Below, piece by piece: positions 5,707 through 32,357 of a DNA stretch of 64,000 bases. Both the position numbers and the translations under genes were made by a program. Origin of the DNA: Bacteroidales bacterium. Its GTDB lineage: Bacteria; Bacteroidota; Bacteroidia; Bacteroidales; GCA-2748055. Position 1 is the stretch's first letter. The number at the start of each line of letters is the position of its first letter. The notes under the pieces are model-generated. The model did no database searches. It had not been told where the DNA came from and worked only from the letters and a program-made list of their open reading frames with translations. The DNA lies in NCBI GenBank assembly GCA_021740585.1, contig JAIOZM010000011.1:1-64000 (forward strand), given 5' to 3'.

Positions 5707-5731
5707 TTCTTCTGGCAGCTTATATCAATCC

Positions 5732-6388: not shown

Positions 6389-6393
6389 ACAAA

Positions 6394-10760: not shown

Positions 10761-10779
10761 AACTTAAAAATAATATTAA

Positions 10780-10813
10780 TAAGACCATTTTGTGAAATCA
10801 GAGTGGTCTTTTT
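10780..10813 (+). terminator. Rho-independent terminator-like hairpin after the second OmpH gene
   Basis: AAGACCA...TGGTCTTTTTA. Confidence 0.6.
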
Positions 10814-10913
10814 AGTTTCTGGTTTCAAGTTTGCGACTTACCCAACCTGAAACCTCTTAAACCTAAAACTACTTCAACCAGCAACCATCAATTTTTTCCC
10901 TATCTTTACCTAC

Positions 10914-11717
10914 ATGAACAAAACACAGGCTCCCATTGGATTATTTGATTCAGGTGTTGGCGGATTAACCGTAGCTGCAGCAATTAAGCAGGTGCTGCCA
11001 AACGAAAGTATGATTTATTTTGGGGATACTGCACACTTGCCTTATGGAGATAAGTCGAAAGAAACTATTGTGCAATATTCACTTAACATCGCCCAATTCC
11101 TACTTAATAAGGGTTGTAAGATTATTCTCATTGCCTGTAACTCGGCTTCTGCAAATGCCTTTGAGGAAGTAAGAACTTTTGTAGGTGAAAGAGCTGTGGT
11201 ACTTAACGTTATCGACCCCGTTGTTGAATATGTCGGCAATGAGCCTTCCCTCAAAAACATTGGAGTAATTGGTACAAAAGCAACTATAAATTCAGGAAGC
11301 TATTCTAATGGGATTCAAAGTTTAAGACCCGACGTTAATGTTTCTTCACTTGCAACCCCCTTATTTGTTCCAATGATTGAAGAAGGATTTATTTTTGACG
11401 ATATAAGTAATGGCATAATCAGATCCTATCTCTCGAGACCCGAATTAAAAGAGGTAGACAGCTTAATACTTGCTTGTACGCATTATCCTATAATTATGAA
11501 TCAGATTCATCGTTTCTTTAATTTCAGGGTAAACATTATCGATTCTGCCCAAATTGTTGCAGAAAGACTAAAATTTATACTTTCGGAGAAACAATTATTA
11601 AATACATCTGCAAAAGCCAGTCACCAGTTTTTCGTTTCCGATCATACAGATTACTTCGAGATCATAGCAAAGATGTTTTTTGGAGAGAAAATCGTATTGC
11701 AGAGGACTTCCATTTAG
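10914..11717 (+). CDS. murI: Glutamate racemase
   Basis: APIGLFDSGVGGLTV, ACNSASANA and ACTHYPI motifs. Confidence 0.96.
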   Translation: MNKTQAPIGLFDSGVGGLTVAAAIKQVLPNESMIYFGDTAHLPYGDKSKETIVQYSLNIAQFLLNKGCKIILIACNSASANAFEEVRTFVGERAVVLNVIDPVVEYVGNEPSLKNIGVIGTKATINSGSYSNGIQSLRPDVNVSSLATPLFVPMIEEGFIFDDISNGIIRSYLSRPELKEVDSLILACTHYPIIMNQIHRFFNFRVNIIDSAQIVAERLKFILSEKQLLNTSAKASHQFFVSDHTDYFEIIAKMFFGEKIVLQRTSI

Positions 11718-11764
11718 GTGATACGATCTGTATTTTTTTATTCTGTTCACATTAATTATCTTCG

Positions 11765-13159
11765 TTGAATTCATTAAATAAAATGAAACGAAAAAGTTAT
11801 ATTTTACTTATTATAATTGCCGGGTTTGTTTTATGCTATATGGGTTTTTACAATAATTACCCTTTGTTGCATTCTGATAGCGGAACGTATATAAAATCTG
11901 GCTTTCTTAATCAGGTTCCACCTGACCGGCCATTATTGTACGGACTCTTTATCCGACATATAAGTATGGCAGAATCCTTATACTTTGTCATTCTGGCTCA
12001 GGGAGTCATCCTTTCCTTAGTTGTTTTTTATTATTTCAAATATTTTCTTCCTGAAAAAAAGATTGCCCTTCCTTTCATTTCTTTTATATTCATTATCAGT
12101 TTTTTTACAGGAGCCTCGCTAAATGTAAGTCAACTGATACCCGATATTTTTACCGGAATAACAATACTTAGCCTGGGATTGCTTTTTATGGTCAGGGACT
12201 TGAAAAAAAGGGATCTTATAATCTTATTATTAATCAGTTTTCTGGGCATTGGTGTTCATAATTCTCATCTGCTTATAGCTTTTTCCCTGCTTTTAACATT
12301 TACATTTTTATTTGCAATACCAAAGATCAGGTTGAAATGGACCTTCCTCAGTTGGAGGAGATTACTATTAATGTGGTCACTGATTATCATCACTTATCTC
12401 GGGATGTCAACCATTAATTATTCTTTCGGCAGTGATTTTAAAACTTCGAAAGGAGGTCATGTATTTTTTATGGCTCGTTTGATAGAAATTGGAGTGGTTA
12501 GCGATTATTTAGATAATAACTGCGATAAATACGACTATCGTTTCTGTGAATATAAAGATCAGATTCCATGGGATTTTATCTGGGATTATGAAAACAGCCC
12601 ATTGTATAAGACAGGCGGATGGGAGGCGAATGAAGAGGAATACAAGGAAATTATTCTGGATATTATGACGACACCAAAATATCTTAAAATATTTGTTGTC
12701 AGAGGACTGGAGGCAAGTTTTAAACAGTTTTTCAGTTTTGAAACCGGTAACGCAAAACAAATGTTAGAGGGATCAGCACCTTATGGTGTAATTAGTCGCT
12801 TTTTCCCCGACCAGCTTAAAGAATATGTGGGATCACGACAAAGCGCTAAACAATTGGATTTTCGTTCCCTAAATACATTTCAGTTATACCTAAGCATCTT
12901 TTCTCTATTAGCTGTAATAATATTACTATTTCTTAAATTCCCCTTTAAATGGAAAGTACTTAGTGCTTACATACTCTATTCGGTTTACATAAACGCTGCT
13001 GTATGCGGTGCTATTTCATTCGTTGCACCACGCTACCAGAGCAGAGTAATATGGCTTCTTGTATTGCCGGTAATGCTTACCATTATTGAATTCGGAAAAT
13101 CGGGAAGAGCTATTTTGAATCAGGGAATTGCAGAGTCAGATTCAATAAATAAAGAGTAG
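11765..13159 (+). CDS. Polytopic membrane protein, possibly GT-C glycosyltransferase-like
   Basis: Many TM segments; early luminal-type LHSDSGTYIKSG. Confidence 0.5.
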   Translation: MNSLNKMKRKSYILLIIIAGFVLCYMGFYNNYPLLHSDSGTYIKSGFLNQVPPDRPLLYGLFIRHISMAESLYFVILAQGVILSLVVFYYFKYFLPEKKIALPFISFIFIISFFTGASLNVSQLIPDIFTGITILSLGLLFMVRDLKKRDLIILLLISFLGIGVHNSHLLIAFSLLLTFTFLFAIPKIRLKWTFLSWRRLLLMWSLIIITYLGMSTINYSFGSDFKTSKGGHVFFMARLIEIGVVSDYLDNNCDKYDYRFCEYKDQIPWDFIWDYENSPLYKTGGWEANEEEYKEIILDIMTTPKYLKIFVVRGLEASFKQFFSFETGNAKQMLEGSAPYGVISRFFPDQLKEYVGSRQSAKQLDFRSLNTFQLYLSIFSLLAVIILLFLKFPFKWKVLSAYILYSVYINAAVCGAISFVAPRYQSRVIWLLVLPVMLTIIEFGKSGRAILNQGIAESDSINKE

Positions 13160-15698: not shown

Positions 15699-17546
15699 AT
15701 GGGGAAAAAACCAAATATTGTTGAATTAGAGGAGGTTGTTGTAAAATTTGCCGGTGATTCCGGTGATGGTATGCAATTAACCGGCAGCCAGTTTTCTGAC
15801 ACATCTGCTTTTATTGGAAATGATCTGTCCACATTTCCTGATTATCCATCAGAGATAAGGGCCCCACAAGGTACCATTGCAGGAGTATCCGGATTTCAGG
15901 TTCATATCGGACATAAAAATGTTTCCACTCCGGGCGATTTGGCCGACGTGTTGATAGCAATGAATCCTGCTGCTCTCAGAACAAATATGAAATGGGTTAA
16001 GCCGGAAGCCACGATAATTATTGATATCGATAATTTTGACGATAAAAACTTCAAGAAAGCCGGATATGCTGATGATCCCTTAAATGATGGGAGTCTTGAA
16101 GGCTTTAACGTTATTCAGGCTCCTATTACCGAGCTTACACGAGCCACGACCAGTGAATTAGGACTTGACTCCAAAACTGCTGACAAAACAAAAAACCAGT
16201 TTGTTGCAGGTATATTGTTTTTCTTGTTTAACCGGGATATTTCAATAGGGGAGAAGTTTTTAAAAGATAAGTTTAAAAGTAAGCCAGAATTGGTTAAAGC
16301 AAATATTGCAGTGCTACAGGCAGGATTCAATTATGCCGAGACCATTGAGGCTTTCTCCACCACTTTTTTAGTCAACCCTTCGAAAAATAAAAAAGGCCTA
16401 TTCAGGAATATTAGTGGAAATCAGGCGACAGCCTGGGGACTTTTAGCCGCTTCGGAGAAAGCTGATATTGGAATTTTCCTGGGTTCCTACCCTATTACTC
16501 CGGCAACAGAGATATTGCAGGAATTGGCAAAAATGAAGCATTTAAATGCGTTGACTTTTCAGGCCGAAGACGAAATTGCCGGAATCTGTTCCGCCATTGG
16601 AGCTTCTTTTACGGGTAGATTGGCTGTTACAACCACTTCGGGTCCCGGACTTGCTCTAAAAGGTGAGGCTATAGGATTGGCTGTTATTACAGAGCTCCCT
16701 CTTGTTATCGTAAACGTTCAGAGAGGAGGCCCTTCCACTGGTTTGCCAACAAAAACAGAGCAAAGCGATTTAATGCAAGCCTTATATGGCAGAAACGGAG
16801 AAAGTCCCTGCATTGTAATTGCAGCCAGTAGCCCGGCAAATTGCTTTGATTATGCATATAAAGCCGCAAAACTTGCCTTGGAACATATGAGCCCTGTTAT
16901 ATTACTTACTGATGGTTATCTTGCCAACGGCTCGGAACTTTGGCATATCCCGGAAGTGAAAAATATGGAGGAAATCCATACAAATAAAGTTGAAGATAAT
17001 CATGCAGATTATTACCCCTATGTAAGAAATGAAGAGACACTCGCCAGACTTTGGGCTGTACCCGGACAGGAAGGTATGAGGCACCGTGTCGGAGGACTTG
17101 AAAAAGCTGATATCACCGGTGAAGTTTCTCATGATCCTATGAATCATCAGGTAATGGTTAATAAAAGACAGGCAAAAGTAGACCGGGTAGTGAACTATAT
17201 CCCTGAGCAGGAAATTATAGGCGAAAAAGAAGCTGATTTGCTTGTTATTGGTTGGGGAGGTACGTTTGGAGCTTTGTTTACTGCCGTTACTGAGTTGCAG
17301 GATGAAGGTCTCTCCATTAGCCTGGCACAGTTTAATTATATTAATCCTCTGCCAAAAAATACCGAGGAGGTATTGAAGAATTTCAAAACACGTGTTGTTT
17401 GTGAGTTAAATATGGGACAATTTGTAAATTACCTGAGATCAAAATTTCCTAATTACGATTACAAACAATACAATAAGGTACAAGGATTACCATTCATGAT
17501 TTCGGAATTAAAACTAAAGTTTAGGGAACTTCTTGAAAATAAATAA
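15699..17546 (+). CDS. korA: 2-oxoacid:acceptor (2-oxoglutarate:ferredoxin) oxidoreductase, alpha subunit
   Basis: Fused gamma domain (FAGDSGDGMQLTGSQF) and alpha domain (GSYPITPATEI, TTSGPGLALKGEAIGLAV). Confidence 0.92.
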   Translation: MGKKPNIVELEEVVVKFAGDSGDGMQLTGSQFSDTSAFIGNDLSTFPDYPSEIRAPQGTIAGVSGFQVHIGHKNVSTPGDLADVLIAMNPAALRTNMKWVKPEATIIIDIDNFDDKNFKKAGYADDPLNDGSLEGFNVIQAPITELTRATTSELGLDSKTADKTKNQFVAGILFFLFNRDISIGEKFLKDKFKSKPELVKANIAVLQAGFNYAETIEAFSTTFLVNPSKNKKGLFRNISGNQATAWGLLAASEKADIGIFLGSYPITPATEILQELAKMKHLNALTFQAEDEIAGICSAIGASFTGRLAVTTTSGPGLALKGEAIGLAVITELPLVIVNVQRGGPSTGLPTKTEQSDLMQALYGRNGESPCIVIAASSPANCFDYAYKAAKLALEHMSPVILLTDGYLANGSELWHIPEVKNMEEIHTNKVEDNHADYYPYVRNEETLARLWAVPGQEGMRHRVGGLEKADITGEVSHDPMNHQVMVNKRQAKVDRVVNYIPEQEIIGEKEADLLVIGWGGTFGALFTAVTELQDEGLSISLAQFNYINPLPKNTEEVLKNFKTRVVCELNMGQFVNYLRSKFPNYDYKQYNKVQGLPFMISELKLKFRELLENK

Positions 17547-17548
17547 TT

Positions 17549-18574
17549 ATGAGCGAAAATAGTGTAAGTATAACAGCTGCTGATTTTAAGGTTGATGGTT
17601 CCGTTAAATGGTGTGCCGGATGCGGTTCATTTTCTGTTTTGGCAACCATTAAAAACACTCTCCCACTTATTGGAGTTAAAAAAGAAAATATTGTTTTTGT
17701 GTCAGGAATCGGTTGTTCCTCCCGCTTTCCATACTATCTCAATACCTATGGATTTCATAGTCTGCACGGAAGAGCAACAGCAATAGCTTCCGGAGTTAAG
17801 GTGGCAAACCCCGATTTATCAGTATGGGTAGTTACAGGCGATGGTGATTCCATGGCAATCGGAGGAAACCATTTTATTCATATCGTCCGCAGAAATATTG
17901 ATGTGAACATTCTTCTTTTCAACAATAAAATTTACGGACTAACCAAAGGTCAATATTCACCAACCACTCCTATTGGAAGTGTTACCAAAACCTCTCCTGA
18001 CGGAACTATTGAGAGTCCTTTTAGTCCGGGAGAACTGGTTATGGGAGCCCAGGGTACTTTTTTTGCCAGGGTGGTAGATACCGATCCGAAAATGATGAAG
18101 GAAGTTTTTGTTGAAGCAGCAAATCATAAAGGCACAGCTGTGGTGGAAGCGCTTCAGAATTGTGTGATATTTGCCAATCAGATTCATAATGAAATTACCG
18201 GTCCTGATGTAAAACACGATCATCAGATTTATCTCAAGCATGGTGAGCCAATGATTTTTGGCAAAAATCGTGAGAAAGGCCTGATTCTAAAATCTAATAA
18301 ATTTGAAGTGGTTACTATAGGTGAAAACGGAATCACAGAAGCAGATATAGCTGTTCACGATGCGCACGACCCCATGCATTCTAATCATCATATGCTTGCC
18401 CGCATGGGATTACCAGAGTTTCCTGTTGCTTTGGGTGTTATCAGAGCCATTAAACAACCTGTTTACGAGACTATGTTGTATGAACAGGTAGCAATGAAAA
18501 AAGCCTCCGCGAAGATTAAAAGTGTAGATGAATTAATGAGAAGCGGTAATACTTTTATGATAAACGGAGAATAA
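17549..18574 (+). CDS. korB: 2-oxoacid:ferredoxin oxidoreductase, beta subunit
   Basis: KWCAGCGSFSVL, SGIGCSSR, TGDGDSMAIGGNHFIH (TPP-binding). Confidence 0.93.
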   Translation: MSENSVSITAADFKVDGSVKWCAGCGSFSVLATIKNTLPLIGVKKENIVFVSGIGCSSRFPYYLNTYGFHSLHGRATAIASGVKVANPDLSVWVVTGDGDSMAIGGNHFIHIVRRNIDVNILLFNNKIYGLTKGQYSPTTPIGSVTKTSPDGTIESPFSPGELVMGAQGTFFARVVDTDPKMMKEVFVEAANHKGTAVVEALQNCVIFANQIHNEITGPDVKHDHQIYLKHGEPMIFGKNREKGLILKSNKFEVVTIGENGITEADIAVHDAHDPMHSNHHMLARMGLPEFPVALGVIRAIKQPVYETMLYEQVAMKKASAKIKSVDELMRSGNTFMINGE

Positions 18575-18608: not shown

Positions 18609-18664
18609 AAAACAGGGATTTGTTTAGTGAATAATTTTTCGCTGGATGAATCTCTGTTTTTTTT
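18609..18664 (+). terminator. Terminator-like hairpin after korB
   Basis: AACAGgGATT...AATCtCTGTT followed by a T run. Confidence 0.45.
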
Positions 18665-18698: not shown

Positions 18699-21600
18699 AT
18701 GGATCTGCCAAAGAATGAAAATGATATTCAACGCCTGATGGAGGAGAAGCATGAGAGACTTAAAGAACTTTCATGCATAAATATAACGAATCAAATTATT
18801 CGTGAGGGGAAGGAAATTGAAGAAACACTCAGACGAATTGTACATATCTTACCCAAAGCATGGCAGTATCCCGGGAGTACCGTTGCACGAATATCCTTCA
18901 AAAACGGAGAATACAGATCGGCAGGATTTAAGGAGACCGAATGGAAGCTTTCACAATCTTTTACAACCATCGACAATTTCATTGGCGAAATAGATATCTT
19001 CTATCTGAAAAAGTTTGCCGATTCAGATGAAGGACCTTTTTTGCTCGAAGAGAGAAATTTAATAGATAATCTTGCCACTATTATTTGTAATTACCTCAAT
19101 ACTCTGGAAGCAAAGAAAATTTTACGGCAATCCAATCTGGGTGCACAAGTTGATCCTGAAGTAGGCGAATTTAAAAAGCCTGCAGATTTGACCAACAGGA
19201 AGTTGCTTCAAAAATTTTTGAATAAACAAAATGCCAATCGTGATATTTTTCATGATCTTATGCCATATAAAGTTAAGGAGATACTGTTAGTAGCCACACT
19301 TTACGATGCTTTTTCTATTGAGAAAGAAGGTAGATTTTCAGAGCATATTCTTGGAGAGTACCACCAGCTGAATTTAACTTCCATGCCCAGAGTAACAGGA
19401 GTTTCAAATTACGACGAGGCATTGATTCAACTAAATAAAAGGCATTACGATCTGGTTATACTCATGATTGGCAGTGACAGGGTAACGCCTTTAAAGCTTG
19501 CTAAAACAATAAAAAGTGAGTTTACCTATATACCGGTATATGTGCTATTGAATAACAATCTTGAGGTAAGTACTTTTAAATCTAAGAAAGAAAACTTTTA
19601 TTACATAGATAAACTTTTCGTTTGGAATGGTGACTCAACCATATTCTTTGCCATGGTCAAGCTTTTGGAAGATCGGGTAAATGTTGAGAACGATACCCAG
19701 ATTGGACTCGTTAAGGTAATTCTGCTGGTTGAAGATTCAGAAAAGTATTATTCGCGCTACCTGCCCTTATTATATAATTCTGTTATGGATCAGACCAAAC
19801 GAATTATTGATGACGTTTCTACCGATGACCTGTTCAAGGTTTTAAGACTGCGGGCACGCCCCAAAATTCTTTTAGCAACAAGCTATGAAGAGTCAATGGA
19901 AATTATAAAAAATTATGGTGAAAGCATATTATGTTTAATTACCGATGTAAAATTCTTCAAGGAAGGGAAATTAGACGATCAGGCAGGATTTCAACTGGTA
20001 AAACAAGTAAAAAGTCAATACCCGGCATTGCCCACAGTTATTCAATCATCCGATAATCAAAATTCAAAATTGGCTTTTGAGTTGAAGTCTATTTTCATCA
20101 ATAAAAATTCCGATACTTTAATCCAGGATATAAAAAGCTTTATCAGTCATCATCTCGGATTTGGGAACTTTGAGTACAGGGATCCGGGTGGAAGAAAAAT
20201 TGCAGAAGCCAGATCATTAAGGGAATTTGAAAAACAGATAGAAACTGTTCCTCTGGAATCCTTAATTTACCATGGAAAAAGAAATCATTTTTCGCTGTGG
20301 CTTATGGCCAGGGGCGAAATAAAAATAGCGAAGCTGATTAATCCTGTAAAAGTTTCTGATTTTGAAGATCCGAATGAATTCAGAAATTATCTGAAATATG
20401 CTATCAAAAAATACAGGAACGAATCCAATACGGGAAAAATAGTAAATTTTGAAGAATCGGCCCTTTTGGATGAAACAAATATTGTAAGTCTTGGAATGGG
20501 AGCTCTGGGTGGAAAGGGGAGAGGACTGGCATTTATTAATACCTTAATCTATAATCTGAATTTTTCAGATTTGATTGAAAACATAAATATACGTACCCCA
20601 CGAACTTCCTTCATTGGAACAGATGAGTTTGATATATTCCTGGAAAAGAATAACCTACATGACATTATTCATGGAGATTACAGCTATGAAGAGATAAAAG
20701 AAATGTTTATTAAAGGGGAATTGTCCTATCATCTGGAAAAAAAGTTGAAGGCACTTTTGAAAATTGAAACTAAACCTTTGGCCATAAGGTCCTCAAGTTT
20801 GTTGGAAGATAGTACCACTCAACCTTTTGCAGGAATTTTTGAAACATTCTTTTTGCCAAATAATAATGTTGATTTCGACATTAGATTTTCACAACTGACC
20901 GATGCCATTAAATTAGTTTATGCCTCCATATATTCGAATGAATCAAGATCCTATTTTACCGCAATAAATTATAAGCTGGAAGAAGAAAAAATGGGAATCG
21001 TAATTCAGGAAGTCGTAGGAAATCAATACGAAAATTATTTTTATCCTCATATTAGCGGAACGGCACAGTCGCATAATTATTATCCTGTAGCTCATATGGA
21101 GCCTGAGGATGGCTTTGCCATTGCGGCTCTCGGACTTGGTCACTATGTGGTTAGTGGTGAAAAGGCCCACCGTTTTTCACCTAAATATCCCAATCTGGAG
21201 ATCAATACACCCAAAATTTTGCTTCGCGATACACAGGTTGATTTTTTTGCTCTCGATTTACATAAACAGAATCTTGACCTTTTGCATGGCGGTTCTGAAA
21301 ATAATTTATCTCGCTTAAGCATTTCTGAAGCTGAAAAGCACGGAACTTTAAATCATATAGCATCTGTCTACGATCCTGATAATGATAGAATTATGCCCGG
21401 GCTAGATACCTACGGGCCAAGAATTATCGATTTTGCTGATATCCTAAAATACAATTATGCACCTCTGTCTGAAACCATAAATTTTATTCTCGATATAGGT
21501 AAAGAAGCTTTAGGTTGTCCGGTAGAAATAGAATATGGCTTAGATCTGAATAAATCGTTGAACGGAAAACCTTCTTTTTATCTTCTTCAAATTAAACCTT

Positions 21601-22187
21601 TACTTGGCAGTAGCGAAGAATATTCAATCGATCTTGACTCATTAAAAAAGGAAGAACTTATTGTTTTTGCTGAAAAAAGCATGGGAAATGGCAAGCTTAA
21701 TAACATCAGCGACTTGGTATATGTAAGAGAGGAGCATTTTGATAAGATGAAAACGAAAGACGTAGTGACAGAGATTAACCGCATAAATAATAAACTTCTA
21801 AACGAAAATCTCAGATATATACTCATTGGTCCCGGCAGATGGGGAACGAGGGATCCTTTTATTGGGATTCCGGTAGGTTGGGCAGATATTTCCGGAGCAA
21901 GAATTATTATAGAAACAAGTTTGCCAAATTTCCCATTAGATGCGTCCCTTGGCTCTCACTTTTTCCATAATGTCACTTCAATGAATATTGGTTATTTATC
22001 AATCCAATATTCTGCTGTAAATGAGTTCATTGACTGGGATTACATTAAACAACAGGAATTGGTTGAAGAAAGTAAGTATTTAAGACATGTACGCTTTAAA
22101 GAACCTCTCTGTGTACTTATGGATGGTAAGAAACGGATTTCAGTAATATATAAAGATATTTATTCAAAAAAGATTTCAGAATTGTAA
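18699..22187 (+). CDS. Receiver-like / PEP-pyruvate-binding (PPDK_N ATP-grasp) fusion protein
   Basis: LLVEDSEKYYSRYLPLL...LITDVKF...QSSD (receiver-like); GGKGRGLAFIN, LAIRSSSLLEDSTTQPFAGIFETF (ATP-grasp); C-terminal LIGPGRWGTRDPFIGIP...GSHFFHN. Confidence 0.75.
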   Translation: MDLPKNENDIQRLMEEKHERLKELSCINITNQIIREGKEIEETLRRIVHILPKAWQYPGSTVARISFKNGEYRSAGFKETEWKLSQSFTTIDNFIGEIDIFYLKKFADSDEGPFLLEERNLIDNLATIICNYLNTLEAKKILRQSNLGAQVDPEVGEFKKPADLTNRKLLQKFLNKQNANRDIFHDLMPYKVKEILLVATLYDAFSIEKEGRFSEHILGEYHQLNLTSMPRVTGVSNYDEALIQLNKRHYDLVILMIGSDRVTPLKLAKTIKSEFTYIPVYVLLNNNLEVSTFKSKKENFYYIDKLFVWNGDSTIFFAMVKLLEDRVNVENDTQIGLVKVILLVEDSEKYYSRYLPLLYNSVMDQTKRIIDDVSTDDLFKVLRLRARPKILLATSYEESMEIIKNYGESILCLITDVKFFKEGKLDDQAGFQLVKQVKSQYPALPTVIQSSDNQNSKLAFELKSIFINKNSDTLIQDIKSFISHHLGFGNFEYRDPGGRKIAEARSLREFEKQIETVPLESLIYHGKRNHFSLWLMARGEIKIAKLINPVKVSDFEDPNEFRNYLKYAIKKYRNESNTGKIVNFEESALLDETNIVSLGMGALGGKGRGLAFINTLIYNLNFSDLIENINIRTPRTSFIGTDEFDIFLEKNNLHDIIHGDYSYEEIKEMFIKGELSYHLEKKLKALLKIETKPLAIRSSSLLEDSTTQPFAGIFETFFLPNNNVDFDIRFSQLTDAIKLVYASIYSNESRSYFTAINYKLEEEKMGIVIQEVVGNQYENYFYPHISGTAQSHNYYPVAHMEPEDGFAIAALGLGHYVVSGEKAHRFSPKYPNLEINTPKILLRDTQVDFFALDLHKQNLDLLHGGSENNLSRLSISEAEKHGTLNHIASVYDPDNDRIMPGLDTYGPRIIDFADILKYNYAPLSETINFILDIGKEALGCPVEIEYGLDLNKSLNGKPSFYLLQIKPLLGSSEEYSIDLDSLKKEELIVFAEKSMGNGKLNNISDLVYVREEHFDKMKTKDVVTEINRINNKLLNENLRYILIGPGRWGTRDPFIGIPVGWADISGARIIIETSLPNFPLDASLGSHFFHNVTSMNIGYLSIQYSAVNEFIDWDYIKQQELVEESKYLRHVRFKEPLCVLMDGKKRISVIYKDIYSKKISEL

Positions 22188-22189
22188 AT

Positions 22190-25100
22190 ATGAAAGAGCC
22201 TCTTCATTTAAAACATAATGCTTTTGATTTGCCCTCATTGGATTTTAGTATGACTGAGTTCGGTGGCTTAATGCAAAAACGTATCCGAACCGTATTAATT
22301 ATCAGCAGTAATTACGACTTCTTTATGTTGGAGGAGGATGGTAGAATCGATGAGCAGATTTTTAATGAATATGTATCGCTTAATCTTAGATACCCCCCTG
22401 TTTTTGTGAAAGCCAGCAGTGCAAAAATGGCATTCGAAGTTCTTGAGCGCGAGGAAGTGGATCTCATCCTCGAGATGTTAAATATTGGAGATGTAGATAC
22501 TTTTGATCTGGCCAAACTGATAAAAGAATCATTTCCTAAAATTCCAATTGTAGTGCTTACCCACTACAACAGGGAGGTGTCTTTGAAGTTACAGAATGAG
22601 GACCTTTCAGGGATTGATTATGTTTTCTGTTGGCTGGGGAATGCCGATCTTCTGCTGGCAATCATAAAACTGATAGAAGACAAAATGAATGCAGAGTACG
22701 ATGTTGATGTAGTTGGGGTACAAACAATTATTCTTGTTGAAGATTCTATTAGATACACCTCTGTATATCTTCCATTGCTTTATAAAATTATTCTGAAGCA
22801 ATCGAGGGAATTTATGAAGGAGGCTTTAAATGAACACCAGAAAATGTTACGTATGAGGGGAAGACCAAAAATTCTCCTTGCCAAAACATATGATGAGGCT
22901 CTGGCTCTTTATAAAAAGTATAAAGAAAATGTACTTGGGATTATTTCAGATGTAAGTTTTAAGGTGAACAATGAGCGGGATGCCAGAACCAAAGAAGGAC
23001 TAAAGTTATGTAAGGTGGTAAGAGAAGAAGATCCATATATTCCCTTCCTTTTGCAATCATCGGATGTGTCTAATCAAATTGCTGCCCAGGAGTTAAACGT
23101 TGGTTTCCTTCACAAATACTCCAAAACGCTTTCTATAGAATTGAGAAATTTTATTATCAGGAATTTTGCATTTGGTGAGTTTATATTCAGAGACCCTAAT
23201 ACTTTTAAAGAATTAAGTCGCGCTGCAGATTTGCAAGCATTGCAGCAACTAATACTTGAAATTCCCGACAATGTTTTGGAATATCATATCTCAAAGAATG
23301 ATTTCTCAAAGTGGCTAAACGCGCGGGCAATTTTTCCTGTGGCTCAGCTTCTTAAATATTTGAGAGCGGAAGATTTTAAGAAACTTGACGATATCAGGAA
23401 TTACATTTATGAAGCTATTGCAAGTTTCAGAATAAGCAAGGGCAGAGGTGTAATTGCTGAGTTTGATAAATCTAATTACGATGAATACCTTACATTTACA
23501 AGAATCGGCGAGGGCTCAATTGGTGGAAAAGCAAGAGGTCTGGCATTCGTGAATTCCGTTATTAAAAAACATAATCTGTTTAATAAGTTTAATAATGCTT
23601 TAATTACCATTCCCCGCACCGTGGTTCTTAGTACAGATGTTTTCGATGAGTTTATGGAAAATAATGATTTGTACAAAATTGGACTTTCCGATTTAAGTGA
23701 TGAGGAAATCCTGAATCATTTTATTAAAGCGAAATTGCCCGGATGGCTTCATCAGGATTTATATGCATTTGTATCTGTAATAAGTAATCCTATTGCCATA
23801 CGATCCTCATCCAAACTTGAAGACAGTCATTATCAGCCTTTTGCCGGAGTTTATTCAACTTACATGATCCCTTGTGTCAAGTCTGACCATGCGCTTACCA
23901 TCAGAATGCTTTCTGATGCGATAAAGTCTGTTTATGCTTGTGTCTATTACAGATCGAGTAAAGCATATATGGAGGCAACTTCTAATGTTATCGACGAGGA
24001 AAAAATGGGTATTATTCTTCAGGAAGTATGTGGAACTACCACCGATAATTTATTTTATCCTACCATATCCGGAGTAGCCCGATCCATTAATTTTTATCCA
24101 GTTGGACCTGAAAAACCAGCCGATGGGATATGCAATATCGCCTATGGTTTGGGTAAATATATTGTTGACGGAGGTATATCCCTAAGGTTCTCGCCCCGTT
24201 TCCCAAGAAATATTTTACAACTTTCTTCACCCGAAACTATTCTTAGGGATACCCAGAAGTATTTCTATGCTCTCGACCTAAACTCCGATAGTTTTGTTAC
24301 CTCAACAAATGATGCAATAAATCTCAAAAAGTTGAGGATAAGAGAAGCTAAAAATGATCCTTCCCTGAAGCATGCCATATCATATTATGATTACGATACA
24401 AATATGGTTCGCGATGGTTACTCAGATAAGGCCAAAAAGGTGATTTCTTTTTCCAATGTATTAAAGCATGAAGTGTTTCCCCTGGCAGAAATTTTATCAA
24501 CGCTTTTGGAAGTAGGACAAAAAGAAATGAATCTGCCCATTGAAATTGAATTCGCGGTGGATTTGAATGTTAAAAAAGGACTGCCCGGGATATTTAACTT
24601 TTTGCAAATCAGACCCATCGTGGAGAATGATCAGACCAAAATTTTTGAGATGGGGGATATAGACGAGTCCGAAGCATTAATATTTTCAAATTCAGCACTT
24701 GGAAACGGCGAATTCACAGGTATTTTCGATTTTGTTTATGTAAGGCCCGAGAAGTTTGAGGCAGCAAATAATTCTAAGATCGCTTCGATAATTGATAACA
24801 TTAACGATAAATTTAAGGAAATGGGCCGGAATTATGTTCTGGTAGGTCCGGGAAGATGGGGCTCTTCTGATCCCTGGTTGGGGATTCCGATTAGTTGGGC
24901 GCAGATTTCTGAGGCTCGCATCATAGTTGAATCAGGGCTGGCAAATTACAGGATTGATCCGAGTCAGGGTACCCACTTTTTCCAAAACCTTACCTCCTTC
25001 GGTGTAGGCTATCTCACCATTAATCCATTTATTAATGATGGCGTTTATGATATCGACTTTCTGAATAGTAAGAAAGCTTGTTATGAGGATCAGTATGTAA

Positions 25101-25195
25101 GACATATTCGTTTTGAAAAGGAAATGAAGATAATTATTGACGGCAGAAATACCAAGGGAGTAATTTATAAACCTGATTGTGGGGAAATTGAATAA
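22190..25195 (+). CDS. Receiver-like / PEP-pyruvate-binding (PPDK_N ATP-grasp) fusion protein, tandem paralogue
   Basis: Same architecture: ILVEDSIRYTSVYLPLL...ISDVSF...QSSD...HKYSK; GGKARGLAFVN, IAIRSSSKLEDSHYQPFAGVYSTY; LVGPGRWGSSDPWLGIP...GTHFFQN. Confidence 0.75.
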   Translation: MKEPLHLKHNAFDLPSLDFSMTEFGGLMQKRIRTVLIISSNYDFFMLEEDGRIDEQIFNEYVSLNLRYPPVFVKASSAKMAFEVLEREEVDLILEMLNIGDVDTFDLAKLIKESFPKIPIVVLTHYNREVSLKLQNEDLSGIDYVFCWLGNADLLLAIIKLIEDKMNAEYDVDVVGVQTIILVEDSIRYTSVYLPLLYKIILKQSREFMKEALNEHQKMLRMRGRPKILLAKTYDEALALYKKYKENVLGIISDVSFKVNNERDARTKEGLKLCKVVREEDPYIPFLLQSSDVSNQIAAQELNVGFLHKYSKTLSIELRNFIIRNFAFGEFIFRDPNTFKELSRAADLQALQQLILEIPDNVLEYHISKNDFSKWLNARAIFPVAQLLKYLRAEDFKKLDDIRNYIYEAIASFRISKGRGVIAEFDKSNYDEYLTFTRIGEGSIGGKARGLAFVNSVIKKHNLFNKFNNALITIPRTVVLSTDVFDEFMENNDLYKIGLSDLSDEEILNHFIKAKLPGWLHQDLYAFVSVISNPIAIRSSSKLEDSHYQPFAGVYSTYMIPCVKSDHALTIRMLSDAIKSVYACVYYRSSKAYMEATSNVIDEEKMGIILQEVCGTTTDNLFYPTISGVARSINFYPVGPEKPADGICNIAYGLGKYIVDGGISLRFSPRFPRNILQLSSPETILRDTQKYFYALDLNSDSFVTSTNDAINLKKLRIREAKNDPSLKHAISYYDYDTNMVRDGYSDKAKKVISFSNVLKHEVFPLAEILSTLLEVGQKEMNLPIEIEFAVDLNVKKGLPGIFNFLQIRPIVENDQTKIFEMGDIDESEALIFSNSALGNGEFTGIFDFVYVRPEKFEAANNSKIASIIDNINDKFKEMGRNYVLVGPGRWGSSDPWLGIPISWAQISEARIIVESGLANYRIDPSQGTHFFQNLTSFGVGYLTINPFINDGVYDIDFLNSKKACYEDQYVRHIRFEKEMKIIIDGRNTKGVIYKPDCGEIE

Positions 25196-25370: not shown

Positions 25371-26708
25371 ATGAATGTTGATCTTTTAATGAATGAGCTA
25401 ATCAAAAAATCTGCTGGTGAAACAGAATACCATCAGGCTGTAAAAGAAGTGCTGGAATCAATTGAAGAAATTTATAATGATAACCCACAATTCGAGTCAG
25501 CAAAAATTATCGAAAGATTAGTCGAGCCCGACAGGGTATTGATGTTTAAAGTTCCCTGGGAAGATGATCAGGGAAAGATTCATGTGAACAGGGGATACAG
25601 AATCCAGTTTAATAATGCCATCGGTCCCTATAAAGGCGGACTGCGATTTCACCCAAGCGTAAACTTAAGTATTCTGAAATTTCTTGGTTTTGAACAAATA
25701 TTTAAGAATAGTCTTACTTCCCTTCCTATGGGAGGAGCTAAAGGTGGATCAGACTTTAATCCAAAAGGTAAGTCAGATCGTGAAGTAATGCGTTTCTGTC
25801 AGGCCTTTATGATGGAATTATGGCACATAATCGGCCCGGATACTGATGTTCCTGCAGGAGATATCGGTGTGGGTGGAAGAGAGATCGGATACCTATACGG
25901 AGCCTATCGCAAACTTGCCAGAGAAAATACAGGTGTTTTAACGGGTAAAGGGATTAACTGGGGTGGATCATTAATCAGACCTGAAGCTACAGGATTTGGC
26001 GTAGTTTATTTTGCTCAGGAAATGTTGAAGACCATTAATCAGGATCTGAAAGGGAAGAAAGTTGCTATTTCCGGTTTTGGGAATGTTGCCTGGGGTGCGG
26101 CTCAAAAAGTTACTGAACTTGGAGGGAAAGTCATTACTATTTCTGGTCCCGATGGTTATGTTCATGATCCTGAAGGTATAAGCGGAGAAAAAATTGAATA
26201 TATGTTGGAGCTGAGAGCTACCAACGAAGATATAGTAAAGCCTTATGCTTATGAATTCGAAGGAGTGGAATTTGTTCAGGGCAAGCATCCATGGGAAGTT
26301 CCTTGCGATATAGCACTGCCTTGTGCCACACAAAACGAACTCAATAAGGAAGACGCTGAAATGCTGGTTAAGAATGGTTGTCTCTGTGTTACTGAAGGCG
26401 CAAATATGCCTTGTACTCCTGAAGCTATTGAAGTGCTTCAGAAAAACAAAGTATTATTTTCACCAGGTAAGGCTTCAAATGCCGGAGGGGTTGCAACCTC
26501 TGGTTTGGAGATGGCTCAAAATTCAATGAAAATAAACTGGCATAGTGATGAGGTTGACTCAAGACTGCATCATATTATGACTAACATTCATGAAAACTGC
26601 GTGAAATACGGTACTCAACCCGATGGTTATGTCGATTATGTAAAGGGTGCCAATATTGCAGGATTTCTTAAGGTGGCCAATTCAATGCTCGATCAGGGCT
26701 TGTATTAA
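25371..26708 (+). CDS. gdhA: NADP-specific glutamate dehydrogenase
   Basis: GYRIQFNNAIGPYKGGLRFHPSVN, LPMGGAKGGSDFNPKGKSD, PAGDIGVGGREIG. Confidence 0.95.
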   Translation: MNVDLLMNELIKKSAGETEYHQAVKEVLESIEEIYNDNPQFESAKIIERLVEPDRVLMFKVPWEDDQGKIHVNRGYRIQFNNAIGPYKGGLRFHPSVNLSILKFLGFEQIFKNSLTSLPMGGAKGGSDFNPKGKSDREVMRFCQAFMMELWHIIGPDTDVPAGDIGVGGREIGYLYGAYRKLARENTGVLTGKGINWGGSLIRPEATGFGVVYFAQEMLKTINQDLKGKKVAISGFGNVAWGAAQKVTELGGKVITISGPDGYVHDPEGISGEKIEYMLELRATNEDIVKPYAYEFEGVEFVQGKHPWEVPCDIALPCATQNELNKEDAEMLVKNGCLCVTEGANMPCTPEAIEVLQKNKVLFSPGKASNAGGVATSGLEMAQNSMKINWHSDEVDSRLHHIMTNIHENCVKYGTQPDGYVDYVKGANIAGFLKVANSMLDQGLY

Positions 26709-26774: not shown

Positions 26775-28073
26775 TTATGCCAGTGTCTTTAAATATTCTT
26801 TGAAATCTTTATAATTATTGCTTAGTGGGATGGAAGACTTTTCTCTGCTTAAAAATAATTTGAGTCTTTGGGGAATTTCAGGTTGTCTGTTGATTTCTGG
26901 CGCTACATTTTCTGCGAACTTAGCCGGGTGGGCTGTCTCAAAGAAAATAATTTCATTTTCAGGATTGTTTTTCAAATATTCCTGAGAAGCTTTGAATCCT
27001 ATGGCTCCATGCGGATCTAAAATGTAATTATAATCCTTATAGACCTTTTTAATGCTTGCCCTGATCTCCTCGTCTTTATAAGAGAAAGCACTGATAGAAC
27101 CGGCCATTTTCTCCTGAGATGAATCGAATAAATCGAGCATGCGGGAGAAATTTGACGGATCACCCACATCCATGGCATTTGCTATGGTAGATACCGATGC
27201 CCGGGGTTCATATTTTCCTTTAATCAGGTAGTTGGGAACTATATCATTTATATTGGTAGCTGCAATAAAGTGCTTTGCTGGCAATCCCATTCGTTGAGCA
27301 ATAAGACCGGCTGTTAAATTTCCAAAGTTTCCACTAGGTACACAAAAAACCGTATTCTCATTATTTGCCAGCTGTTTCCACCCATGCCAGTAATAAAAAG
27401 ATTGAGGAAGGAGCCTGGCCAGATTAATAGAATTAGCTGAAGTTAATGAAACAGCACCCTCCATATCCTTGTCGTTGAAGGCCGTTTTTACCAGTCGCTG
27501 ACAGTCGTCAAAATTCCCTTCAACTTCAATGGCTCTGATGTTTTGCCCCAGGGTGGCAAATTGCTTTTCCTGCATTTTGCTAACCTTATTTTTTGGATAT
27601 AATACGTGCACAGTAATACCTTCCACTCCAAGAAAACCATTTGCCACCGCACTTCCGGTATCGCCTGAGGTGGCTACGAGTACATGGATATCGTTTTCGT
27701 TTTCAGCTATAAAATGAGAAAGTATCCGTGCCATAAACCGGGCGCCAACGTCTTTAAAAGCAAGGGTAGGACCATGAAAAAGCTCAAGACTGTGAATATG
27801 GTCGCATACTCTTATAAGGGGTATCTCAAAATTCAGGGCTTCATCAACGATTTCTTTAAGTTTTTGTGATGGAATATCATCCCCAAAAAGCTTCTTGCTT
27901 AGCTCGAAAGAAATTTCCTGAAGGCTGAGTTTTTTTATGGAATGTATGAATGCCTTCTCCATTACAGGAATTACCATGGGCATAAAAAGCCCTCCGTCAT
28001 CGGGTAATCCTTTAAAAATGGCTTCTTTCAGACCTACCGTATTATTTTTGTTTTTTGTGCTGTAATAGTTCAT
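26775..28073 (-). CDS. thrC: Threonine synthase
   Basis: FHGPTLAFKDVGARFMAR, ATSGDTGSAVA, VPSGNFGNLTAG. Confidence 0.95.
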   Translation of the reverse strand: MNYYSTKNKNNTVGLKEAIFKGLPDDGGLFMPMVIPVMEKAFIHSIKKLSLQEISFELSKKLFGDDIPSQKLKEIVDEALNFEIPLIRVCDHIHSLELFHGPTLAFKDVGARFMARILSHFIAENENDIHVLVATSGDTGSAVANGFLGVEGITVHVLYPKNKVSKMQEKQFATLGQNIRAIEVEGNFDDCQRLVKTAFNDKDMEGAVSLTSANSINLARLLPQSFYYWHGWKQLANNENTVFCVPSGNFGNLTAGLIAQRMGLPAKHFIAATNINDIVPNYLIKGKYEPRASVSTIANAMDVGDPSNFSRMLDLFDSSQEKMAGSISAFSYKDEEIRASIKKVYKDYNYILDPHGAIGFKASQEYLKNNPENEIIFFETAHPAKFAENVAPEINRQPEIPQRLKLFLSREKSSIPLSNNYKDFKEYLKTLA

Positions 28074-28166
28074 GGTCTTTGTCTTTACTTTCTTTTTGTA
28101 AACTTTGAATCATTTTGCGTCCAATAATCAGGATCTCAAATTCAAAATTTCAACACATTTTAATCC

Positions 28167-28321
28167 GCCTTCACATTCGCTTCGGTGGACGCGAAGGCAG
28201 TGGTTTAATTGGCTGCGCCGAGCTCGTAAACTCGGTTCCCCGATGCTCTGCATCGTAAAAAAGTGTCCAGAGTTCTACTCTGGGGTTTAATACCATATAT
28301 TAAACCCTGTTTTTATCAGGG
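28167..28321. repeat. Cluster of consecutive hairpins (REP-like) in the thrB-thrC intergenic region
   Basis: GCCTTC/GAAGGC; CCGAG/CTCGG; CGATGC/GCATCG; CCAGAG/CTCTGG; GGGTTTAATA/TATTAAACCC; CCCTG/CAGGG. Confidence 0.7.
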
Positions 28322-28322
28322 A

Positions 28323-29249
28323 TTAATCCAGCACCCGGGTCCCCACTTGCGAAACGCCGGATACGTATGTTACTGATTTTATGTTATTTTCAAGAAATGT
28401 ATCTTCCATTATTTTCGCTGCTTTCGCTGCTGTTTCAGGATTGTCTGACAAGGCAAAAACCGAGGGTCCTGATCCTGAAATATTCATTCCCAAAACTCCA
28501 CAATCACTCAGACGTTTTCTTAATATATCGTAGCCCGGAATAAACTTTGACCGGTGTGGTTCTGCAATTTTATCAATCAATGATCTGCCAATCAGGGCGT
28601 AATTGTTGGTGTTTAGTCCGGCAACAAGAGCCGCGATATTACCCGATTGTGCAATGCTTGCATTAAGTTCAATTTTTTCGGGGATAAGTTTACGACTTTC
28701 CTTTGTATTTATTACCAGATCGGGGTGAACCAGAGTGCAAACAAGATTTTTAGGGTAAGTAAGTTTAATTATGTCTATCGGATTATAGGAACGGATTAAA
28801 ATAAATCCGCCTAGCAATGCAGGTGCAATATTATCGGCATGCAAACTCCCGCTGGCAATAAATTCGCCGGCAAGAGCAGAATCGATAAGGCTTTCAGTCT
28901 CCATTGGCTTCCCAAGAAGTTGATTTACTCCGTAAACGGCTGCTGTACAGCTTGCTGCACTTGATCCTATTCCTGACCCGGGATTAATTTTCTTTTCAAA
29001 AATAAGATCGAAGCCCTCATTAATTTGCAGCGTATCGAGCAGAGACTTTATTGCGACTGATGATACATTCTTGAAAGGATCTAATGGAATAGTTGCATCA
29101 CTTTCATTGAAAATTCGAATGGTATTTTGCTTATTTCGCTTTACTTTCAGAATATCAAGAGGCTGTTCTAAAGCAAAACCCATCAGGTCGAATCCGGGTC
29201 CAACATTCGACACCGTTGCCGGGGCAGCTATTCTTATGGAATCACTCAT
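28323..29249 (-). CDS. thrB: Homoserine kinase (GHMP family)
   Basis: PATVSNVGPGFDLMGFAL, NPGSGIGSSAAS, GMNISGSGPSVFAL. Confidence 0.93.
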   Translation of the reverse strand: MSDSIRIAAPATVSNVGPGFDLMGFALEQPLDILKVKRNKQNTIRIFNESDATIPLDPFKNVSSVAIKSLLDTLQINEGFDLIFEKKINPGSGIGSSAASCTAAVYGVNQLLGKPMETESLIDSALAGEFIASGSLHADNIAPALLGGFILIRSYNPIDIIKLTYPKNLVCTLVHPDLVINTKESRKLIPEKIELNASIAQSGNIAALVAGLNTNNYALIGRSLIDKIAEPHRSKFIPGYDILRKRLSDCGVLGMNISGSGPSVFALSDNPETAAKAAKIMEDTFLENNIKSVTYVSGVSQVGTRVLD

Positions 29250-29252
29250 TTC

Positions 29253-29921
29253 CTATATCTTATGGTTGTTAATGCTATTAAATTCCTTTTCACCAAGTTC
29301 ATTCAGACTTTTTAGCTTTAGGTCGGCTATTACGTATTCAGGATAATGATAATGAACTTTATCAGGAATAGCAACCACTTTCATCCTGGCGGCTTTTGCC
29401 GAAATTACACCGTGAATACTGTCTTCAATGGCCATACAGTTCATTGGATTAATACTCAGTCTTTTTGCCGTTCCAATATAAACTGCAGGGTGTGGTTTGG
29501 CATATTCCTCATTCTCTGCAGAATGAATTACATCGAAGTAATGGCCTAAATTAAAACGCTTCACAAAGGCTTCGATAAGAACCAGATTGGAAGAAGAAGC
29601 CAGGGCAATTTTAAGACCCTTCTTTTTGAAAAAATCAAGAATATATGTAACACCGGGCATTAGTTCCAGCCGGGTATTAAAATAATTCAGCATTATTCCA
29701 TCATAGTTTTTTTCTATTTCTGCAAAATCAGGATTCGGCCAGGGTTTATAATTATACCAAAAAGCAATTTGCTCGGCGGTACACAATCCAAAGCTGTCCT
29801 TTTGCATCTCTTTTTTTATCTCAATACCATAATCTTTCATAATGGTGCGTTCTGTTTCCTGCCAGAAAGTTTCAGAATCGATCAAAATCCCATCCATATC
29901 AAATATTACTGCCTCGATCAT
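29253..29921 (-). CDS. HAD-superfamily hydrolase (beta-phosphoglucomutase / HxpB-like)
   Basis: FDMDGILIDSE, ALASSSN, KPHPAVY, AIEDSIHGVISAKAA. Confidence 0.88.
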   Translation of the reverse strand: MIEAVIFDMDGILIDSETFWQETERTIMKDYGIEIKKEMQKDSFGLCTAEQIAFWYNYKPWPNPDFAEIEKNYDGIMLNYFNTRLELMPGVTYILDFFKKKGLKIALASSSNLVLIEAFVKRFNLGHYFDVIHSAENEEYAKPHPAVYIGTAKRLSINPMNCMAIEDSIHGVISAKAARMKVVAIPDKVHYHYPEYVIADLKLKSLNELGEKEFNSINNHKI

Positions 29922-29930
29922 AATTGTTTT

Positions 29931-32357
29931 TTAAACTTTAGCGATTCTGATTATATCTGCAAAAATTCCAGCTGCAGTTACTTCCGCACCAGCTCCGTAT
30001 CCCTGTATCATCATAGGATCGTCTTTATATCTTTCTGTGGTTATTAGTATAATGTTGTTACTGGCCTCCAGGCGATGAGCAGCATGATTATCACTCAACT
30101 CAACCAATTCAACGGAGCCTTTTCCTTCTTTCAGACTGGCCACAAACCGCCATTTCTTATTCTCCTTAACCAGAGCTTTTCTTTTTTCTTCAAACTGTGG
30201 ATTAAGTTTTTCAATTTCAGACCAGAAAGTATCAAGATTACCCATAAAACACGATTTTGGAAGAAAAGGCATTAAATTGACATCCTTCTCTTCCATTTTA
30301 TAACCGGAGACCCGGCTAAGAATTAAAAGTTTACGCATCACATCTTTGCCGCTCAAGTCTATCCTGGGATCGGGTTCTGAAAAACCCTTTTCCATAGCTA
30401 GTTTTACGGCATCGCTCAGACTAATTTTTTCAGACAAGGTATTGAAAATGAAATTCAATGTACCGGAAAGCACAGCCTCCAATCCAATAATTTTATCCCC
30501 GCTTTTTATAAGATCGTTAAGGGTGCTAATGATGGGAAGACCTGCTCCCACATTGGTTTCAAATAAAAACCTTACACCCTTTTCTCTTGCTTTTGCCACC
30601 AGACTTTCATACTGTGAATAATCGGAAGAACATGCTATTTTATTTGCGGTAACTATAGATGCGTACTGATTAAAGATATGTATATATTGTGCTGCAATTT
30701 CCTCGCTGGCAGTGCAATCAACAAATACTGAGTTTCTGAGATTTAGCTCCTTAATTCGTTTGATGAATGTATTAATGTCGGCTTTTTCGCCCCGGTCTAA
30801 TTCAGTAAGGCAATTTTTTAAATCGACACCATCCTCAGTAATTAACATTTTCCTTGAATTACTCAGACCAACCAATTTAATATTCAGGCTGAGGTTCTCC
30901 AACAGATTCTTTTTTTGGGCTTCCATTTGGTTTAGAAGTTTTTGTCCCACATTTCCGGTCCCTACAAAAAATAAGTGTAATTCCTTAATATGACTGAGGA
31001 AGAAACCTTCATGGATAGAATTCAGTGCTTTTTTAAGTTCTGAAAACCGTATCACAACCGAGATGTTAAGCTCTGAAGAACCCTGAGCCGTAGCCACCAC
31101 AGAAATACCATTTTTTCCCAGAGAGGAAAACAGATTGGCAGAAATCCCTGGGGTATTTTTCATCTTTTCACCTACAATGGCGATAATGGACAGCCCCATT
31201 TCGATTTTCAGATCAATGATTTTCTTAATTTCAATTTCCATCTGGAATTCGTTAAAGATGGCTTTTTCAGCTTTTGCTGTATCTGCCGGACTCACCGCAA
31301 AACTTATGGAGAACTCGGATGAAGCCTGTGTAATAAGAATGATATTGATGTTTTCTTTAGCCAGAGCTGTAAATAACCTCATTGAAGTGCCTGTGGTACC
31401 GGGAAGACCGCTTCCCTGAAGGCTGATAAGATCGACCTGGTCTATCGATGAAATTCCCTTAATCAGGCTGCCGTTATTGTTTCCGCCTTTTTGGCTGATA
31501 AGCGTACCTTTGGCTCCCGGATTAAAAGTGTTTTTTATTTTAATGGGAATATTGTTAATGTATGCCGGATGAAGCGTAGGGGTATAGAGAACCTTTGCTC
31601 CAAAATGAGATAATTCCAATGCTTCAGAATAGCTGAGTTCGTCAATAACATAAGCTTTACTCACTTTTCTCGGATCGGCGGTCATAAATCCGTCAACATC
31701 AGTCCAAATTTCCAGAATTTCGGCCTTAACTGCGGCGGCAACGATGGCCGCAGTATAATCAGAGCCTCCTCTTCCAAGGGTGGTGATCTGTCCTTTTTTG
31801 TTTGAAGCTATAAATCCCGGTAAAACGGCTATTCCTGAGAAATTCTTAAATGATTCAGTGATGTTTTTATTCGTAGTTTCAAAATCTACCTGAGCATTTC
31901 CGTGTTTGCTGTTTGTTGAAATGCAATTACGCATATCAATGCATTGGGCATTTTCAAAGGCATTAGCAATGATAAAGGAAGAAAGTCGTTCTCCAAAACT
32001 AAGTAAATGGTCTTTCGTCTTAAGACTAAGGTCTCCCACCAGAAAGACTCCGTACAACAAATCGTTCATTTCATTAATGAGCCGGTTGGTGTGCTGACGT
32101 ACTGCATCTAATTTATCTTTCGATACCAAACGTTCAACAGCAGTAAGATGTCTTTGCCGGATGTTTTCTGCTTCACTTTTATAACTTTCTATTCCTTGAA
32201 CAGCATCTTCACTTATCTTAAGGATTTGGTCTGTAATCCCCTGAAAGGCAGAAACAATAACAATAGTATCAGCTTGTTGTTTGTTTACAATATCAATAAC
32301 CTTCATTATCGATTCGGGAGAACCGACCGAGCTGCCACCAAATTTTAGAACTTTCAT
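29931..32357 (-). CDS. thrA: Bifunctional aspartate kinase / homoserine dehydrogenase
   Basis: KVLKFGGSSVGSPESI, GRGGSDYTAAIVAAA, HSD domain ANKIACSS / FETNVGAGLPIISTLNDLI. Confidence 0.95.
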   Translation of the reverse strand: MKVLKFGGSSVGSPESIMKVIDIVNKQQADTIVIVSAFQGITDQILKISEDAVQGIESYKSEAENIRQRHLTAVERLVSKDKLDAVRQHTNRLINEMNDLLYGVFLVGDLSLKTKDHLLSFGERLSSFIIANAFENAQCIDMRNCISTNSKHGNAQVDFETTNKNITESFKNFSGIAVLPGFIASNKKGQITTLGRGGSDYTAAIVAAAVKAEILEIWTDVDGFMTADPRKVSKAYVIDELSYSEALELSHFGAKVLYTPTLHPAYINNIPIKIKNTFNPGAKGTLISQKGGNNNGSLIKGISSIDQVDLISLQGSGLPGTTGTSMRLFTALAKENINIILITQASSEFSISFAVSPADTAKAEKAIFNEFQMEIEIKKIIDLKIEMGLSIIAIVGEKMKNTPGISANLFSSLGKNGISVVATAQGSSELNISVVIRFSELKKALNSIHEGFFLSHIKELHLFFVGTGNVGQKLLNQMEAQKKNLLENLSLNIKLVGLSNSRKMLITEDGVDLKNCLTELDRGEKADINTFIKRIKELNLRNSVFVDCTASEEIAAQYIHIFNQYASIVTANKIACSSDYSQYESLVAKAREKGVRFLFETNVGAGLPIISTLNDLIKSGDKIIGLEAVLSGTLNFIFNTLSEKISLSDAVKLAMEKGFSEPDPRIDLSGKDVMRKLLILSRVSGYKMEEKDVNLMPFLPKSCFMGNLDTFWSEIEKLNPQFEEKRKALVKENKKWRFVASLKEGKGSVELVELSDNHAAHRLEASNNIILITTERYKDDPMMIQGYGAGAEVTAAGIFADIIRIAKV

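Follow-up and report, generated by a model that had tools for sequence, protein, structure and literature searches.

Phosphoenolpyruvate (PEP) synthase and pyruvate phosphate dikinase (PPDK) carry an ATP-grasp domain with GGK, RSSS and E..LQ(R/K) motifs. A PPDK_N-type ATP-grasp domain is also present in rifampin phosphotransferase and in the two-component phenol dikinases (HpeHI, CreHI, PpsAB). Rifampin phosphotransferase and the HpeHI-type enzymes are precedents for ATP-grasp domains with acceptors other than PEP, and dikinases with split ATP-grasp and swivel domains exist, e.g. HpeHI (PMC12167813). Tandem receivers, one of them degenerate, are found in PleD-like proteins. Two adjacent genes, here termed A and B, display features of all of these. 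They are located in a 64,000-nucleotide (nt) stretch of the genome of a Bacteroidales bacterium (assembly GCA_021740585.1, contig JAIOZM010000011.1, positions 1–64,000), hereafter the window. A and B differ from PEP synthase and PPDK in having receivers but no detected His swivel or PEP/pyruvate TIM barrel. Compared with rifampin phosphotransferase and HpeHI, neither a swivel His motif nor a substrate domain could be detected in them, and they add tandem receivers and a well-conserved C-terminal domain with no sequence relation to the swivel. In contrast to PleD-like proteins, the output is an ATP-grasp together with a new domain, not GGDEF.

We read B as a post-translational regulator that depends on ATP and acts on enzymes consuming 2-oxoglutarate, chiefly glutamate dehydrogenase (GDH), and the same probably holds for the family as a whole; at the same 2-oxoglutarate node, A may belong to the branch of the 2-oxoacid:ferredoxin oxidoreductase KorAB. 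The probability of this reading is put at roughly 0.45. What is observed is a common architecture with intact ATP motifs, an intact second receiver, a conserved C-terminal domain and a recurrent gene neighbourhood.

A preliminary description, made from the letters of the window, had noted two adjacent genes with a 2-nt gap and a shared architecture. Both open reading frames are confirmed, and A and B are full-length paralogues with 38% identity over 974 amino acids (aa). The motifs quoted in that description are present in both, and the PPDK_N-type ATP-grasp it named is found by Pfam far over the cut-off (E-value = 1.1e-35 in A and 7.3e-34 in B). Alignment shows that the sites of the PPDK/PEP synthase family are kept: the GGK lysine (K447 in B), the RSSS arginine (R538), a glutamate (E787) and a glutamine (Q806). 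At the final position of the LQxR motif B has Arg, and A has Lys. From this motif conservation the ATP site is predicted to be intact in both proteins. Downstream of the ATP-grasp only about 180 aa remain, and Pfam searches of A and B found neither the PEP-utilizers His domain (PF00391) nor the PEP/pyruvate TIM barrel, as had been anticipated. Thus the canonical ATP motifs and the lack of a detectable His or TIM domain bear out, in part, the earlier view of ATP-using, receiver-bearing proteins other than PEP synthase.

The C-terminal domain, first taken to be about 140 aa long, is about 180 aa (residues 819–998 of B). Its near-invariant motifs hold: among 201 complete homologues GPGRWG is found in 191 and G[ST]HFF in 200. 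An alignment of 104 homologues, extending down to ~26% identity, displays an invariant Asn, GRWG, D, G, E, S, G, HFF and Tyr. Such a pattern is typical of an active site, and catalysis by this domain is putative. The RSSSxxED motif of the ATP-grasp is present in 199 of the 201 complete open reading frames with the C-terminal domain, and the other two also encode ~1000-aa proteins; the C-terminal domain and the ATP-grasp travel together in every complete open reading frame examined. When modelled alone, residues 819–998 give a predicted local distance difference test score (pLDDT) of 92.1 and a predicted template modelling score (pTM) of 0.90. For the AlphaFold2 model of the entire B protein, with 48 homologues in the alignment, the mean pLDDT is 84.8 and the pTM 0.78. 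No significant match to a Pfam family, a PDB profile or a PDB fold (Foldseek) was obtained for the C-terminal domain. The structural and profile check that had been proposed for it therefore gives a confident fold and no canonical His domain or TIM barrel.

Two receiver-like regions are present, as previously described, and only the second is intact. It has the complete response-regulator set (acidic pair, phospho-Asp, Ser/Thr and Lys), which the first fails: there an invariant Met96 closes strand 3 in place of the phospho-Asp and Trp148 replaces the Lys (B numbering). For the receiver, Pfam gives B a significant match (2.7e-8) and A one below threshold (2.4e-4). Foldseek with the full B model shows an N-terminus that resembles PleD-like tandem receivers. 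A gene for a PAS-PAS-HisKA_3 histidine kinase abuts or overlaps a B-type gene at two loci (L101, positions 10425–11858, and L105, positions 5673–7112). As a candidate input to receiver 2 this kinase is only suggestive.

The N-terminal region of A also starts the 1065-aa relatives, and at another locus (L135, positions 349–1497) it forms a single protein with a Crp/Fnr-type regulator, the gene of which lies beside B. A clustered homologue is found at L139 (positions 365–1486). The PAS kinases and the Crp/Fnr fusion agree with the presence of a signal input. A GAF-like sensor had been suggested for the first ~150 aa of A; the region is conserved, but Pfam and PDB searches gave no significant match to any family, and a GAF identity is suggestive only. 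Matches of the linker to DUF5752 are under the Pfam cut-off in both A and B, and this candidate was rejected.

The gene neighbourhood points to GDH. Clustering of neighbouring genes at 144 loci places GDH first (55 loci, directly adjacent in 49), followed by korB (50) and korA (47). Of the 113 loci whose flanks reach 2 kb or more on each side, 42 have GDH no further than 2 kb away and 45 have korAB no further than 5 kb away; one or the other is nearby in 75. Genomes of 2–6 Mb mostly have 1–3 GDH genes, so proximity to GDH by chance would be below 1%. Gene order and strand relative to GDH differ among lineages, and thus inheritance of a single operon does not account for the linkage. There are also a few genomes in which the family is present and no gdhA match was obtained. 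In a tree of 100 sequences, GDH neighbours are found in all deep branches but A, i.e. in the 913–1066-aa clade (with an archaeal-type GDH), a 580-aa pair, the B-type proteins of other Bacteroidota and B of Bacteroidales; the A clade neighbours korAB. The order korA-korB-(A)-B is conserved in environmental Bacteroidales, to which A is almost confined. In isolate-type Bacteroidales and deeper relatives korAB is not nearby and GDH is often kept.

The placement of A and B after korAB and before gdhA is confirmed in the window, and the 2-oxoglutarate link that it had suggested gains from a neighbourhood conserved far beyond the source genome. The proposed co-occurrence with both korAB and gdhA is upheld more unevenly, since GDH recurs in deep branches, with a different GDH type among them, and korAB mainly accompanies A and environmental Bacteroidales. 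A near-perfect hairpin followed by a T tract, likely an intrinsic terminator, lies between korB and A, and A-B is therefore probably its own transcription unit between korAB and gdhA.

Single loci provide further examples. The genomes of L101 and L105 each have two B-type copies, and each copy adjoins a gdhA. The gdhA and B genes of Parabacteroides distasonis and of Phocaeicola massiliensis are divergently oriented, with a second GDH 3.5–4 kb further. The P. distasonis protein (WP_041525632.1), a direct homologue, is annotated by domain with no assigned function, being named only "PEP/pyruvate-binding domain-containing protein". At L217 both GDH genes directly flank B. Beside B in several isolate-type Bacteroidales (L145, L146, L151, L155, L158, L161) there is a long coiled-coil-like protein without a Pfam match. 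In one clade (L019, L027, L028, L037, L049, L055) the gene immediately upstream of A, in opposite orientation, codes for a universal-stress protein (UspA), and korAB is not nearby.

Ammonia assimilation in Bacteroides proceeds largely via GDH. In two genomes of one Bacteroidaceae genus (L205, L206), other than B. thetaiotaomicron, an NADP-GDH gene and a B gene of 3 kb are convergent, with 91 and ~300 bp between them, followed beyond B by a prolyl-oligopeptidase-like gene and then a second GDH. The title of an earlier paper (Baggio and Morrison, 1996; cited in PMC4539542) states that GdhA of B. thetaiotaomicron needs, for its activity, trans-acting gene(s) located downstream of gdhA. The location of B directly downstream of NADP-GDH at L205 and L206 fits such trans-acting gene(s), and by this analogy of position we infer that the 1996 factor may be a B homologue. 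The active segment was reportedly about 3 kb in length, acted in trans in E. coli and left transcription unchanged, and insertions downstream of gdhA are said to have been unobtainable. We know of no later report that identifies the gene, although no systematic search for one was made. Literature searches with candidate B. thetaiotaomicron locus tags gave no matches.

From the domains and the neighbourhood we infer GDH as the target, a use of ATP in its regulation, and a transferred group. A signal, such as phosphorylation of Asp254 in receiver 2 or a ligand at the N-terminal domains, would gate the ATP-grasp. The ATP-grasp and the C-terminal domain, with its invariant GRWG/D/E/HFF residues, would then modify or remodel GDH and so set GDH activity, the C-terminal domain supplying the acceptor or transfer chemistry. 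A, with its added sensor-like N-terminus and its position next to KorAB, may act likewise on the branch that competes for 2-oxoglutarate. The phosphotransfer to a receiver Asp that was raised in the preliminary description is not favoured. It is conceivable, if rather doubtful, that these proteins represent a new class of signal-gated, ATP-dependent GDH-modifying enzymes, with the GRWG/HFF domain as a new catalytic or phospho-relay fold, and that they are the Bacteroides GDH trans-acting factor of 1996.

Several points weigh against regulation of GDH by B. Neither GDH nor KorAB is close to B in 38 of the 113 well-flanked loci, and several gdhA-bearing genomes are without the family. KorAB is as frequent a neighbour as GDH by locus count, so that the target could be the 2-oxoglutarate node rather than GDH. 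The regulation of GDH, the acceptor residue and the C-terminal catalysis are all putative.

A and B might instead be divergent small-molecule dikinases with a very divergent swivel, in which the receivers merely regulate. With the full B model, the best Foldseek match of the ATP-grasp is rifampin phosphotransferase (5hv1, E-value = 4.9e-13), and HpeI also matches (9goj, E-value = 1.9e-10); the split organization of HpeHI is a precedent, and the exclusive association of the C-terminal domain with the ATP-grasp would suit a dikinase as well. Among the top 50 Foldseek matches of the isolated C-terminal domain, the three with the highest template modelling (TM) scores are swivel-type folds (PPDK 2x0s, PPDK 1vbh and aconitase X), and the invariant His lies in a low-pLDDT loop of the full model. 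The domain might thus be a very divergent swivel. These three matches are non-significant, however (E >0.1, TM ~0.32, root mean square deviation 7–8). None of the 104 homologues gives a Pfam match to the His swivel, hhalign against 26 His-swivel domains yields a probability below 1%, the T/SxxGGxxxH swivel motif is not found in the domain, whose invariant His is in a different context, and a second substrate-binding domain is not obvious. A dikinase appears fairly unlikely on this balance. The earlier statement that the C-terminal domain stands in place of the His swivel may hold: the two show no sequence relationship, but the swivel-type folds among the non-significant matches and the invariant His leave a divergent swivel conceivable. 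An ordinary PEP synthase or PPDK that has been misread is extremely improbable: the PPDK_N domain and the database name of the P. distasonis homologue would fit, but the His and TIM-barrel domains were not detected in A and B, and a separate canonical PPDK with a His domain is encoded on another contig of the same genome.

The family could also be a non-catalytic ATP/ADP sensor or scaffold, in which the ATP-grasp binds nucleotide and the receivers bind partners. GDH or KorAB would then have in it an allosteric subunit or an assembly chaperone, and no group would be transferred. The N-terminal receiver, degenerate yet conserved, and the Lys in place of the LQxR arginine in A are consistent with this. 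Down to ~26% identity, nevertheless, the key residues of the ATP-grasp and the polar ones of the C-terminal domain hardly vary, which argues for catalysis, and a sensor or scaffold is unlikely. If KorAB or the redox state of ferredoxin were the main target, as the possible redox link of the preliminary description hinted, the proximity of GDH would be secondary; the korAB-(A)-B order of environmental Bacteroidales, and the near restriction of A to them, would be expected. The hairpin between korB and A, and the lineages in which GDH is kept and korAB is not nearby, speak against KorAB as the main target, and this explanation is improbable. Regulation of 2-oxoglutarate-consuming enzymes, above all GDH, remains the preferred reading.

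The family was followed within Bacteroidota. The C-terminal domain is present in 171 of 197 sampled Bacteroidales genomes, and B in 55 of 61 genomes assigned to Bacteroidaceae (by an 85% match to Phocaeicola massiliensis). In a phylum-wide sample about 42 of 247 genomes carry the family after removal of weak chance matches. Those removed were 28 matches of ~390–430 aa, all on one short stretch, and the four inspected are acyl-CoA dehydrogenases matched by chance. B homologues are also found in records labelled as phage (MT835811, MT835667, MT839982) and plasmid (OY726056, NZ_OY725790). These labels are probably wrong, as the records look like bacterial chromosomal contigs, the phage ones from faecal samples.

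Among the relatives in other classes are B-type proteins, a form of ~580 aa that lacks receivers and forms of 778–1073 aa. In several of the last, the C-terminus is a nucleotidyltransferase domain whose GS...SDxD motif is intact; in L103 and L104 this motif is degenerate or absent. The domain (Pol-beta/NTP_transf_2) forms the final ~110 aa of 913–1066-aa relatives at L098, L099, L100, L102 and L110. An archaeal-type GDH is within 2.5 kb of five of the seven nucleotidyltransferase-type relatives in the tree. GlnD and GlnE are likewise nucleotidyltransferases, and their likeness to these relatives beside GDH is one of domain type. A and B, in contrast to GlnD and GlnE, have no nucleotidyltransferase domain.

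The coordinates of the features are given in Table 1. Further downstream in the window (26775–32357, minus strand) are genes of the threonine pathway (fused aspartokinase/homoserine dehydrogenase, homoserine kinase and threonine synthase), with a HAD-type phosphatase gene between the fused gene and that of homoserine kinase.

Table 1. Positions in the window of genes A and B, their predicted domains and flanking features
Feature	Position	Strand	Remarks
korA	15699..17546	+	2-oxoacid:ferredoxin oxidoreductase alpha subunit; conserved neighbour
korB	17549..18574	+	2-oxoacid:ferredoxin oxidoreductase beta subunit; conserved neighbour
Terminator-like hairpin	18611..18658	+	near-perfect, 20 pairs, then T tract; between korB and A
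Gene A	18699..22187	+	1162 aa; sensor-like N-terminus, pseudo-receiver, receiver, linker, PPDK_N ATP-grasp, C-terminal domain
A N-terminal region	18699..19253	+	residues 1–185; conserved ERLKELxCIN...WQYPExTVARI...GPFLxEER
A receiver	19710..20153	+	residues 338–485; long helical insertion; E345, D416 (phospho-acceptor position), S450, K469 conserved
A PPDK_N ATP-grasp	20502..21620	+	residues 602–974; K606, R697, E945, Q964, K966
A C-terminal domain	21630..22184	+	GPGRWG and GSHFFHN present
Gene B	22190..25195	+	1001 aa; architecture as A minus extra N-terminus
B pseudo-receiver	22277..22684	+	residues 30–165; Met96 at phospho-Asp position, Trp148 at Lys position
B second receiver	22715..23170	+	residues 176–327; E184/D185, D254, S290, K309; long helical insertion
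B PPDK_N ATP-grasp	23516..24640	+	residues 443–817; K447, R538, E787, Q806, R808
B C-terminal domain	24644..25183	+	residues 819–998; no known family
gdhA	25371..26708	+	glutamate dehydrogenase (NF010633); commonest neighbour of the family

Nearly all Bacteroidales carry B, genera of the human gut among them, yet its annotation consists of a domain name alone. If the 1996 result could be linked to a defined, testable protein, an old question could be answered directly, and the C-terminal domain would establish a new family of domains, always paired with an ATP-grasp. If the proposed function is correct, B would be a GDH counterpart to the control of glutamine synthetase by GlnD and GlnE, and a nitrogen-control switch unlike PII/GlnD.

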